Assembly (NCBI RefSeq): GCF_023101685.1
Contig: NZ_CP082164.1
Span: forward strand, 10,349,026 to 10,413,025
From: Bradyrhizobium sp. 186
Lineage (GTDB): Bacteria; Pseudomonadota; Alphaproteobacteria; Rhizobiales; Xanthobacteraceae
Length of the DNA: 64,000 nucleotides
Reading direction: 5' to 3'
Of the stretch, positions 57,032-63,969 are shown piece by piece (positions within the stretch are counted from its first letter, which is position 1; every line of letters begins with the position of its first letter). Below the pieces are notes generated by a model. The model did not search any database, had not been told where the DNA came from, and was given only the letters and a program-made list of their open reading frames with translations. Both the position numbers and the translations under genes were made by a program.

Positions 57032-57493
57032 AAAAACTCTTTGTATGAAGGCGGTGTGGTTTGTGGATTTCTGTGGACCTTAACCCCTCGGAAAGGGTTG
57101 CGCGACACCAGGGGCGGGACAACGGCCAATTTTCTTCACACCACTGCCCATGAGAACAACTCTGACGCCCGGGTAAGACGTAAGCGGGATTGCGCGGACA
57201 AGCCCCTTGATAAGCTGCCGACAGAACGGCGCAAGCCCTTGAAGCCCGGTAACTTATCCGGGCACGCTGGACTCGAGCGGGATATGTTGATGGATGTGAA
57301 CAAGCGCGTGTGAAGTGGCGGACGGCATTGTGTGAGTCCAATTCACGGTCACACAGACTCAAACCTTAAGATTCTAAAAGTTTTAGGTTTAGAAGAGCCC
57401 ATCGCAAGGATATGTGTGTGCGCCCGCATCTATGAATGAATTCTTACCGATTGCGCTCTATCCACCGATTGGTGAGACCGAAGGGTTTCCGGC
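57032..57493. other. oriC: Candidate chromosomal replication origin (oriC)
   Basis: This 462-bp gene-free gap lies between divergent ppsR and hemJ. Gene order on both sides (secB, dnaQ, coaE, maf, ppsR to the left; hem gene, rho, mnmE, mnmG, rsmG to the right) is that around the Caulobacter origin, which lies beside the same ppsR-type gene. The gap holds an A/T-rich block (57359-57395). It has degenerate DnaA-box-like 9-mers: TTCTTCACA at 57132-57140, TTGTTCACA on the minus strand at 57295-57303, and AAATCCACA on the minus strand at 57062-57070. No perfect TTATCCACA is present, so the call rests mainly on synteny and parS nearness. Confidence 0.5.
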
Positions 57494-59740: not shown

Positions 59741-61066
59741 ATGCATCCGCGAGACCAGACCATCTTTGCGCTGTCGTCCGGCCGGCCGCCGAGCGCGATT
59801 GCCGTGGTGCGGGTCTCCGGACCGCAAGCCGGGCCGGCACTGACGACACTTGCTGGCAAGCTGCCGGCGCCAAGGCTGGCGAGCCGGCGGCTGCTCCGTG
59901 ACGCGACCGGCCAGCCGATCGATGATGCGGTCGTGCTCTGGTTTCCAGGGCCGGCCAGCGCGACCGGCGAGGACGTCGCCGAATTTCACGTCCACGGCGG
60001 CCGCGCGGTGCTGTCGGCACTCCTCGACGCGATTTCCGTGATTCCGAATACGCGGGCGGCGGAGCCCGGCGAGTTCACGCGGCGCGCCTTCGAGAACGGC
60101 AAGCTCGATCTCACCGAGGCCGAGGGCCTGGACGATCTCATCCATGCCGACACCGACCGCCAGCGCCGTCAGGCACTGCGCCAGTTGCAGGGCCTGCTGG
60201 GCAACCGCGCGCGCGACTGGCGCGAGCGGATCATTGAGGCTTCCGCGCTGATCGAGGCGGGCATCGATTTTTCTGATGAAGGCGACGTGCCGGCCGAGCT
60301 GATGGTGCCGGCGGTGAAGGCGATCAATGCGCTGCATGGCGAAATCGCAGAAGTGCTTGCGGCACAGGGGCATGCTGAACGCCTGCGCGATGGCCTGATC
60401 GTCGCAATCGCCGGACCGCCGAACGTCGGCAAGTCGACACTGATGAATCAGCTCGCGCGGCGCGACGTCGCGATCGTCTCGCCACATGCCGGCACCACGC
60501 GCGATGTGATCGAGGTGCAGCTCGATCTCGATGGCTATCCCGTCACGGTGATCGACACCGCCGGCATTCGCGAGACGCATGATCCAGTCGAGCAGGAGGG
60601 CGTGCGCCGGGCCAAAGCGCGCGCCGCGGACGCGGACCTCGTGCTTTGGCTGACGGGTCCCGATGCGGGGACGGAAGAGCGGCTGCCGGGGACCGCACCG
60701 GTCTGGACGCTCCGCAACAAGATCGACCTCGAGGCAGGTGTCGCGATCGCCGCGGCCGACACGGCTTTCGCCATTTCGGCGCGGCGGGGCGACGGGCTGC
60801 CGGAGCTGATCAATGCGCTGGTTGGATTTGCCGCGGAGTTCTTCGGGACCAGCGAGGGTGTATTGGTCACCCGGGCGCGCCAACGGGATCTGCTAGTTCG
60901 GGCCTCAGACAGCTTGCTCCGGAGCCTGGAGCTTGTAGAAGAGGGCGAGGAACTTGCAGCCGAAGAGCTGCGTGCCGCTGCTTACGCCTTGGGCCGGCTA
61001 TTGGGCCGGGTCGACGTCGAAGACGTTCTCGGGGCCATTTTTCAGAAGTTCTGCATCGGAAAGTAG
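59741..61066 (+). CDS. mnmE: tRNA modification GTPase MnmE (TrmE)
   Basis: This 441-residue GTPase, together with MnmG, adds the (carboxymethyl)aminomethyl group to wobble uridine of tRNAs. It has an N-terminal formyl-THF-binding domain ([15 protein letters not shown] near residue 85), a G domain with P-loop [17 protein letters not shown] near residue 222 and DTAGIRET, and the C-terminal motif FCIGK with the conserved Cys near residue 438. It is the first gene of the mnmE-mnmG-rsmG row. Confidence 0.96.
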
Positions 61067-61112: not shown

Positions 61113-61128
61113 TGTTTCACGTGAAACG
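61113..61128. promoter_or_regulatory. parS: parS site 1
   Basis: TGTTTCACGTGAAACG differs from the ParB-binding consensus TGTTTCACGTGAAACA only at the last base. It lies in the mnmE-mnmG gap. Confidence 0.92.
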
Positions 61129-61236
61129 GATCGAAAAGGGTTCCATGCGGTTTCAGTAAAACACAATGATTTCAAGCCATGCGCTACTGTGCATGGGGTT
61201 GTTTTGCGAAAATGCGTGAAGCTTCCTGGACCGTCC

Positions 61237-61252
61237 TGTTTCACGTGAAACA
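61237..61252. promoter_or_regulatory. parS: parS site 2 (perfect)
   Basis: TGTTTCACGTGAAACA is identical to the 16-bp ParB-binding consensus. Its centre is 124 bp from that of parS site 1, in the same gap. Confidence 0.96.
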
Positions 61253-61308
61253 TCCGGCCAATCGAGTTTCTACTTCCGGCTTTTTCCACTCTGAGCTAGA
61301 AGTCCGCC

Positions 61309-63189
61309 ATGCGTACAGAGCGAGAGAACTTCGACGTCATCGTGATTGGCGGCGGCCACGCCGGCTGTGAGGCCGCGGCTGCTTCAGCCCGAATGGGCGC
61401 GACGACCGCTCTGGTGACGCACCGTTTCTCGACCGTCGGCGCAATGTCCTGCAATCCGGCCATTGGGGGTCTCGGCAAGGGCCACCTGGTCCGTGAAGTC
61501 GATGCGCTCGATGGTCTGATGGGTCGCGTGGGCGATGCCGGTGGGATCCAGTTCCGCGTTCTCAACCGCCGCAAGGGTCCTGCGGTTCGGGGTCCAAGGG
61601 CGCAGGCGGACCGAAAGCTTTATGCTGCGGCGATGCAGGCCGCGATCCGCGAGACCGAAGGTCTTTCCGTCATTGAAGGTGAGGCGGACGAGCTGATCGT
61701 GGTCGATGGCCGGGTGACCGGTTTGCGTTTGGCCGACGGTCGGGGGCTTCGGGCGGGGGCCATTGTCGTCACGACCGGCACCTTTTTGCGCGGACTGATC
61801 CATCTCGGCGAGAAGAACTGGCCGGCCGGCCGTGTCGACGAGGCGCCGGCGATGGCCCTGTCGAGCTCCTTCGAACGCGCGGGCTTTACGCTCGGCCGGT
61901 TGAAAACCGGGACGCCGCCGCGGCTCGACGGCACCACGATCAACTGGTCCGCCGTCGAAATGCAGCCTGGCGACGATCCGCCAGAGCCGTTCTCGGTGAT
62001 GACTCAGCGGATCACCATGCCGCAAATCCAATGCGGGATCACCCGGACCACGTCCGCCACCCATGAGGTGATCCGGGCCAATGTCCATCGGTCTCCGATG
62101 TACTCCGGCCAGATCAAGAGCTCCGGACCGCGCTATTGCCCCTCGATCGAGGACAAGATCGTTCGTTTCGGCGACCGCGACGGCCACCAGATCTTTCTGG
62201 AGCCGGAAGGGCTCGACGACACGACCGTTTATCCCAATGGCATCTCCACATCGCTGCCGGAAGAGGTCCAGCTCGCGATCCTCGCCACGATCCCCGGCCT
62301 TGAGCGGGTGAAGATGGTCCGGCCGGGCTACGCCATCGAATACGATCACGTCGATCCGCGCGAACTCGACCCGACCCTCCAGACTAGGCGTCTCCGCGGT
62401 CTTTTTCTGGCCGGACAGATCAACGGCACCACCGGATATGAGGAAGCCGCCGGGCAGGGCATCGTCGCCGGCCTGAACGCGGCGCTTGCCGCCAGCGGCG
62501 CCGCCCTGACGGTGTTCGACCGCGCCGACGGCTATCTCGGCGTCATGATCGACGACCTCGTCACCCGCGGCATCAGCGAGCCCTATCGGATGTTCACCTC
62601 GCGGGCCGAATACCGGCTGACGCTGCGGGCGGACAATGCCGACCAGCGCCTGACCGAGAAAGGCATCGCCTTGGGGTGCGTCGGAAGCGCCAGGACCCGG
62701 CATCACCGCGCCAAGATGGACGCTTTGAATGCGGCACGGACGCTTTCGAAGTCCCTGACGATCACGCCGAACGAGGCAATCAAGCACGGTTTGTCCCTGA
62801 ACCGTGACGGCCAGCGCCGCTCGGCCTTCGAATTGATGGCCTATCCCGACATCGGCTGGAGCCAGGTCCGCGCGATCTGGCCTGAGCTGTCGGCCGTTGA
62901 TCCCGTGATCGCGACCCATCTCGAGATCGATGCCAAATACGACGTCTATCTGGAGCGCCAGAGCGCTGACGTCGAAGCTTTCAGGCGGGATGAGGGATTG
63001 GTGCTATCCGATGTCGACTACAAGCTGGTGCCTGGCCTCTCCAACGAGGTCCGTGCCAAGCTGGAGAAGGCGAGGCCTTTCACCGTCGGCCAAGCTGGCC
63101 GGATCGACGGCATGACGCCGGCCGCGCTCGGAATCCTCGCGGCCTATCTCCGCCGTGAGGCACGGAAGACTTCCAAAGCAATCGCATAG
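61309..63189 (+). CDS. mnmG: tRNA uridine-5-carboxymethylaminomethyl modification enzyme MnmG (GidA)
   Basis: This 626-residue FAD protein is the partner of MnmE in wobble-uridine modification. The FAD motif [19 protein letters not shown] lies at residue 12, with [23 protein letters not shown] near 46, GEKNWPAGR near 170, and [16 protein letters not shown] near 370. Length is normal. It starts 57 bp after parS site 2, and its stop is directly followed by parS site 3. Confidence 0.97.
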
Positions 63190-63190
63190 G

Positions 63191-63206
63191 CGTTTCACGT
63201 GAAACA
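63191..63206. promoter_or_regulatory. parS: parS site 3
   Basis: CGTTTCACGTGAAACA differs from the consensus only at the first base. It fills the mnmG-rsmG junction, and the GTG at its centre (63199) is also the first possible start codon of rsmG. Confidence 0.92.
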
Positions 63207-63969
63207 GCGCGGGCCGGCAGGCAGATCTTCATCGCGAGCACCTGAGGCGGGCGAGGGGGCGGGACGTCGGCCCAGGCCCAGCCCCATCAGTCCGAAGATC
63301 GACAAAGCCGGTGCAACCGACAAGTCGCTGGACTCTGTGCTTGCCGCCAACAAGGCTGCAGCACTCAAGCTCGCCCCCATTTCACGTGAAACGGAGGCCC
63401 GGCTGGACCGCTACATCGCGCTGCTGCGGGAGTGGCAGGCCAAGACCAATCTGGTTGCGCCCTCGACACTGCCGCATCTCTGGACCCGGCACATCGCCGA
63501 TTCGCTTCAGCTTGTGGATCTCGCGCCGTCGGCAAAGCGCTGGGCCGACCTCGGCAGCGGCGGCGGTTTCCCCGGAATCGTCCTCGCCTGCGCCATGGCC
63601 GAGACTTCAGGTGCGAGCGTCCATCTGGTCGAGCGCATCGCCAAGAAGGCGGCTTTTCTGCGCGAAGCGATCCGCATCACCACATCTCCGGGAGTCGTAC
63701 ATCTCGCTGAGATCGGGGATAATGTGGATAGAATCACCGGCCCCGTCGATTGCGTCACCGCACGTGCACTGGCTCCGCTACATCAACTCATCGGCTTTGC
63801 AGAGCCGCTGATGCGCCAGGGCGCAAAAGCGCTGTTTCTCAAGGGTCAAGATGTAGATGCTGAATTGACCGAAGCCGCTAGATATTGGAATATTCAGCCT
63901 CAGCTCCACCAAAGCCGCACCGGTGACGGCTGGATCGTAGAGCTGGCTACCGTCGAACGGCGCGGGTGA
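63199..63969 (+). CDS. rsmG: 16S rRNA (guanine-527 N7)-methyltransferase RsmG (GidB)
   Basis: This SAM-dependent methyltransferase of up to 256 residues modifies G527 in the 530 loop of 16S rRNA; its loss gives low-level streptomycin resistance in other bacteria. The core has LLREWQAKTNLVAPSTLPHLWTRHIADSLQL near residue 75 and the SAM site WADLGSGGGFPGIVLA near 115. The first 46 residues are a non-conserved Arg/Pro/Ser-rich tail. The true start may be the GTG at 63337, giving 210 residues, close to the usual family length. It holds parS site 4 in its coding sequence. Confidence 0.93.
   Translation: MKQRGPAGRSSSRAPEAGEGAGRRPRPSPISPKIDKAGATDKSLDSVLAANKAAALKLAPISRETEARLDRYIALLREWQAKTNLVAPSTLPHLWTRHIADSLQLVDLAPSAKRWADLGSGGGFPGIVLACAMAETSGASVHLVERIAKKAAFLREAIRITTSPGVVHLAEIGDNVDRITGPVDCVTARALAPLHQLIGFAEPLMRQGAKALFLKGQDVDAELTEAARYWNIQPQLHQSRTGDGWIVELATVERRG
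63378..63393. promoter_or_regulatory. parS: parS-like site 4, inside rsmG
   Basis: CATTTCACGTGAAACG keeps the 12-bp core TTTCACGTGAAA and differs from the consensus at positions 1, 2 and 16. It lies in the rsmG reading frame near the start of the conserved domain. It is weaker than the other three, but the clustering supports a real site. Confidence 0.7.

Follow-up and report, generated by a model that had tools for sequence, protein, structure and literature searches.

In the available excerpts of the report on Caulobacter crescentus (Tran et al. 2017, PMC5815017), at least five 16-bp parS sites are placed near ori; the five strongest lie in a 5-kb segment, the cluster is about 8 kb from ori, and parS sites occur within genes that are essential or costly to fitness when lost. 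Hyphomonas neptunium is described as carrying two perfect parS sites, which lie near ori and upstream of parAB, and its ParB binds TGTTTCACGTGAAACA in gel shifts (Jung et al. 2019, excerpts of PMC6650430); the same text has hemE flanking ori in Caulobacter. For Pseudomonas aeruginosa, parS1-4 are described as the four-site cluster nearest to oriC, and nine of ten predicted parS sites as most likely lying in coding sequences (excerpts of PMC4368675). Here we analyse a cluster of four 16-bp palindromes around mnmG and rsmG in Bradyrhizobium sp. 186. It is almost certainly the centromere of the main chromosome, that is, the parS cluster of its chromosomal ParABS system, with the binding by ParB carried over from other species.

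The window, by which we mean the whole 64-kb stretch of DNA that was analysed (G000:C1:10349026-10413025), is the final part of a contig of 10,413,025 bases (10.41 Mb). The order of genes is rho, mnmE, mnmG and rsmG, and then, across the contig joint, parA and parB. Base 1 of the contig is the ATG of a gene for a ParA-like ATPase (bases 1-855), and parB follows it directly as an open reading frame at 915-1880 of the same contig with a likely start at 996. This bears out the expectation of the sequence-only reading that parAB would come directly after rsmG, past the end of the window. When the contig is read as a circle, 31 bp separate the end of rsmG from the start of parA. The gap between these two genes is uninterrupted in 19 relatives from the genus: it measures 27-31 bp in 13 of them and is a 4-bp overlap in the other 6, and of the 13 gaps, 11 are similar in sequence to the one here and two (L207 and L208) are dissimilar. 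Since the rsmG-parA joint agrees with 11 of 19 genus relatives in both length and sequence, we infer that the contig is circular. The window thus in all probability ends at the centromere of the Bradyrhizobium chromosome, and its contig begins at parA.

Table 1. Features of the locus; positions count from the first base of the window.
Feature	Position	Strand	Details
mnmE (tRNA modification GTPase)	59741..61066	+	NF003661, 603.5 bits (cut-off 380)
mnmG / gidA	61309..63189	+	TIGR00136, 791.2 bits (cut-off 524.85)
rsmG / gidB	63199..63969	+	TIGR00138, 107.7 bits (cut-off 99.5); likely GTG start inside parS site 3, inferred
rsmG-parA gap, 31 bp to contig end	63970..64000	+	
parS site 1, TGTTTCACGTGAAACG	61113..61128	.	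mnmE-mnmG gap; 1 mismatch to TGTTTCACGTGAAACA
parS site 2, perfect 16-bp palindrome	61237..61252	.	mnmE-mnmG gap; 0 mismatches to TGTTTCACGTGAAACA
parS site 3, CGTTTCACGTGAAACA	63191..63206	.	directly past mnmG stop; 1 mismatch to TGTTTCACGTGAAACA
parS site 4, CATTTCACGTGAAACG	63378..63393	.	within rsmG, in-frame ISRET; 3 mismatches to TGTTTCACGTGAAACA
Weak oriC candidate, AT-rich gap (52.8% G+C)	57032..57493	.	4 weak DnaA-box-like sites

The four palindromes lie where the sequence-only reading had seen them, and both their coordinates and their mismatch counts (one perfect, the others with one, one and three) agree with it. The exact 12-bp core TTTCACGTGAAA has four copies in the whole genome (10,772,313 bases, 10.77 Mb, scanned over two contigs), all four of them in this cluster, and the 16-mer TGTTTCACGTGAAACA at up to one mismatch has three matches, again all in the cluster. 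An equal density of such 16-mers across the genome, which that reading had named as evidence against itself, is not what these strict scans show. Dinucleotide-shuffled windows held 0.06 matches on average, and none of 100 held four. Looser scans do not discriminate, the reversed control being nearly as frequent: genome-wide, allowing up to two mismatches in the 12-mer gives 147 matches (reversed control 101), and allowing up to three in the 16-mer gives 14 (reversed control 11). The genome scan with two mismatches, proposed earlier as a check, would therefore mislead, and the support for site 4 comes from its intact core and its conservation, not from its 16-mer score. Site 4 may have a low affinity owing to its three outer-base differences from the consensus.

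Of 40 genomes of the genus, this one counted, 39 contain the exact core, and the exception is 80% complete; the reversed control core has one forward match across all 40. Outlying exact cores from two of the genus genomes belong to imperfect 16-mers. Three sets of loci from relatives were compared. The family set consists of the mnmG loci of all 60 other genomes in the family search, two of which are of the same genus; the class set of 60 genomes, mostly the best-scoring, out of 103 that gave a match among 115 class genomes searched; and the genus set of 18 stretches from 17 genomes that were chosen for having sites, so that this set is not independent of site presence. After removal of a stretch that had no mnmG match, being the other half of a genome cut in mnmG, 137 loci and 1.05 Mb remain. 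These loci contain 332 exact cores, whereas each of 59 palindromes matched to the core in composition has none. A chance origin of the palindromes is rejected on these 59 controls together with the uniqueness of the core in the genome. A site upstream of mnmG is found in 19 of 20 genus loci, 53 of 58 family loci and 43 of 60 class loci, and a site between the end of mnmG and the end of rsmG in 20 of 20, 50 of 58 and 53 of 60, respectively (this genome counted in both genus figures); the exact core is absent from 4 of the 60 sampled class loci. All of mnmG, rsmG, parA and parB are found in 133 of 138 loci, in the same order and on a single strand in every one of the 133, and the remaining five have no match to at least one of the four genes. 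Taken together, the site counts per gap and the gene order identify a layout common to most of the sampled class. Among these relatives, one family stretch (L155, of G154) has nine exact parS cores, eight of them upstream of mnmG, an expanded centromere. The mnmG of another family member (G207:C1:3623712-3625576) was matched in two pieces, in the manner of a frameshift, and a record titled Frankia sp. RB7 (L368) holds a Bradyrhizobium-like rsmG locus at 86% identity and is probably mislabelled or mixed.

The sites form two pairs, with spacings of 124 bp (sites 1-2) and 187 bp (sites 3-4), and the gap of about 1.95 kb between the pairs reflects the length of mnmG. Adjacent spacings below 400 bp range over 30-302 in 20 genus loci, 25-366 in 58 family loci and 30-279 in 60 class loci. 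With no conserved spacing at any of these levels, a meaningful spacing within the pairs was rejected, and the earlier suggestion that it could matter for ParB loading finds no support in relatives in which it varies so widely.

GC skew was sampled in 20-kb pieces around the contig, 20 of them spread out together with the first 20 kb. Between 0 and 5 Mb the skew is positive in 10 of 11 samples, and the 10 samples between 5.4 and 10.2 Mb comprise eight with negative skew, one with zero and one with positive skew. In the same samples, the ratio of forward to reverse copies of GGGNAGGG is 19:5 in the first half of the contig and 1:10 in the second. These contrasts lend coarse support, at megabase scale, to an origin near the contig joint, at the same chromosome end as the parS cluster, and the same half-contig skew would put the terminus near 5.2 Mb, again at megabase scale. 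Finer sampling gave a weighted skew of +0.0017 for the 13 pieces between 10.16 Mb and the joint (7 positive) and +0.0047 for the 12 pieces between the joint and 0.24 Mb (7 positive); the skew is flat from 10.16 Mb to 0.24 Mb, and this sampling did not locate the switch. The cluster had been taken as strong evidence for origin proximity. The contrast between the contig halves upholds this only coarsely; near the joint the skew is flat. The ratio of forward to reverse GGGNAGGG is 1:9 at 10.16-10.34 Mb, 8:3 in the window and 11:6 past the joint. The 8:3 in the window is opposite to the direction expected left of an origin, and the change from 1:9 before the window to 8:3 within it suggests that the skew switch could lie near the left edge of the window. 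The gene dnaA lies about 248 kb past the joint and hemE at 7.9 Mb (G000:C1:7911478-7912482), a distance of 2.5 Mb from the cluster, so that neither gene fixes the position of oriC. The weak candidate in Table 1, some 3.6 kb ahead of the first parS site, has a Kinase-PPPase gene on one side and hemJ on the other; its count of weak DnaA-box-like sites is equalled by another stretch of the window and is not exceptional.

Read in the rsmG frame, the core of site 4 encodes (V/I)SRET where the conserved part of the protein begins. The motif as searched is missing in 19 of 137 RsmG sequences (four genus, eight family and seven class; this genome included and one family locus without RsmG left out), and in most of the seven class loci nothing similar is found there; 10 of the same 137 sequences have SHET with an altered core. 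A control at phylum level took in 30 of 78 rsmG loci, 25 of them from outside the class, each with a stretch of up to 1.5 kb on either side. The exact core is absent from the fetched stretch in 21 of these 25, and in the other four it lies upstream of rsmG or near its 3' end, in none at the rsmG start. Two loci (L237 and L184) carry several parS cores within one rsmG gene, most of them in the VSRET frame. It is quite possible, although not the reading that we prefer, that in Bradyrhizobium site 4 is a decaying, weakly binding relic and that sites 1 to 3 do the work. We examined a set of named loci for this clade, the 80 most similar to this RsmG out of 146, of which 79 are titled Bradyrhizobium and at least six come from the same genomes as in the main set of relatives. 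Only 28 of the 80 keep the exact site-4 core and 48 have SHET with a changed centre, so that site 4 is often degraded in this clade, and in this genome it has three outer mismatches. On the other side, the exact core is kept here and in 49 of the 53 class loci with the motif.

The rsmG frame opens directly past the mnmG stop codon, and the central GTG of site 3 (63199) is in this frame. In all 80 named loci, the core of site 3 has its GTG in the rsmG frame and is read as FHVK (FHVKQRG in 77); the frame opens at site 3 in 68 of them and extends further upstream in 12. Codons past site 3 vary as in a translated sequence, with 0.38 at the third position versus 0.17 at the first two in 11 loci (p = 1e-4, only a guide because the sequences are related) and 0.40 versus 0.20 in 67 named loci. 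From the shared frame and this third-position variation typical of coding, the GTG within site 3 is likely to be the start codon of rsmG in this clade. A start elsewhere, for example at the GTG at 63337, with the frame through site 3 as an untranslated leader, is unlikely but has several points on its side: this genome has that second in-frame GTG before ISRET; among the 79 named loci with both core and motif, another in-frame start stands between the two in 35 and upstream of site 3 in five; and in a less selected genus sample site 3 is in the rsmG frame in only 9 of 17 loci, the others being arranged differently. Against this, third codon positions are about twice as variable as first and second positions, beginning with the first codons past site 3. 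The alternative starts are scattered, the commonest being common to nine loci, and in 44 of the 79 the interval between the parS GTG and VSxET is free of any further ATG, GTG or TTG.

The codon-level data also bear on whether site 4 is a parS site at all. Where RsmG has SRET, 9 of 9 genus loci, 47 of 47 family loci and 49 of 51 class loci carry the exact core, whereas the synonymous codon usage of neighbouring genes in the same loci predicts 0.002, 0.017 and 0.16 cores, respectively; as the loci share ancestry, the counts do not represent independent events. It is accordingly very improbable that RsmG merely needs V-S-R-E-T and that the core is a by-product of codon choice. Core-less loci show VSPET, VSSET, VSCET and SHET, and also VSDEI, ISRQI and VPRET; several of them thus keep SxET after the loss of the core, and RsmG probably benefits from part of the motif. 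Loss of the core usually takes the arginine with it, however, and SRET without the core occurs in only 2 of 51 class loci. Altogether, site 4 looks to be selected both as DNA and as codons of RsmG.

The ParB encoded past the joint carries the Pfam domains ParB_N, HTH_ParB and ParB_C and a GERRWR motif of the GERRxR type, and its closest solved relative is Caulobacter ParB (6t1f, E 1.5e-69). In the available excerpts of Jalal et al. 2020 (PMC7383237), Q162, G170, K171, S172, N178 and R204 are listed as parS contacts shared with Noc, and R173 and G201 as absolutely conserved in ParB. All eight of these residues (Caulobacter numbering) are present here, and the two variable positions are M179 and K184. 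ParA has the Walker motif KGGVGKT and scores 203.5 bits against a Pfam AAA_31 cut-off of 27, while no NCBIfam cut-off was reached among the 25 families listed for ParA. A gene for SMC is present elsewhere in the genome. There are also two strong MipZ-family genes, at G000:C1:6084168-6084956 and 7279695-7280468 (E 1.7e-117 and 6.7e-80), and a second MipZ-like protein in one genome is possibly worth attention. The second contig (359 kb) has three further ParB-family genes above the cut-off within 22 kb (G000:C2:250012-271962), and a 14-kb stretch of this contig contains no parS-like site with fewer than five mismatches.

That the palindromes are operators of a local regulator of mnmE-mnmG-rsmG, unrelated to segregation, is hardly credible: the palindrome has the length of an operator and two sites lie in the mnmE-mnmG gap, a possible location of the mnmG promoter, but the sequence is the listed Hyphomonas neptunium consensus and close to the listed Caulobacter one, the adjacent ParB retains the parS-contacting residues, and one copy is conserved within coding sequence, which is unusual for an operator. 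The uniqueness of the core and the adjacent parAB instead support what the sequence-only reading had proposed, namely that the palindromes are ParB sites marking the chromosomal partition locus. As a centromere, the cluster would work through a dimeric ParB, the product of parB past the joint, that recognises each of the 16-bp parS palindromes. If it behaves like characterised ParB proteins, it would then close as a CTP-bound clamp and slide into the flanking DNA. The ParA ATPase would then pull the ParB-DNA complex, as a result of which sister origins are proposed to separate first, and MipZ and SMC would be the expected further partners. Binding, clamp loading and segregation are in each case projected from other species.

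In most sampled class loci, one parS site is written in rsmG codons. Changes in rsmG can therefore alter the centromere and vice versa, and when rsmG is deleted, the loss of the parS site and not that of the enzyme may be responsible for the effects. Lists of parS sites at the level of genes are most likely to be found in Livny 2007 and Toro 2008. A literature search over titles and the beginnings of abstracts, with partial coverage, returned nothing on parS inside rsmG, which is weak evidence. Intragenic parS sites as such are already known, as excerpts on P. aeruginosa (PMC4368675) and Caulobacter (PMC5815017) attest; what may be new are the class-wide constraint on rsmG codons and the likely start codon within site 3. 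A more speculative and rather doubtful idea, drawn from sequence, is that sites 3 and 4 are dual-purpose, locking the centromere to rsmG, and that ParB loading could repress or time rsmG-parAB and so couple segregation to ribosome maturation. Its scope would be the start codon in site 3 for this Bradyrhizobium clade and the in-frame site 4 for much of the class.

How does the locus compare with the known systems? The Noc proteins belong to a family homologous to ParB, and the Noc model gives the ParB here 214 bits, below the cut-off of 315. At the four specificity positions, the ParB here has R-M-K-G, in contrast to the Q-K-K-R given for Noc in excerpts of PMC7383237; a Noc-binding site (NBS) was rejected as an identity for the palindromes because the partner protein has R-M-K-G and not Q-K-K-R. 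Pseudomonas aeruginosa belongs to another class but shares the four-site cluster, and Hyphomonas neptunium differs in having two sites versus four here. The closest likeness in protein is to Caulobacter, whose ParB is the nearest solved relative and whose parS cluster lies near ori; the locus here differs in having four sites and in that hemE has moved away, and the names gidB, rsmG and mnmG do not occur in the main text of Tran et al. 2017 (PMC5815017).
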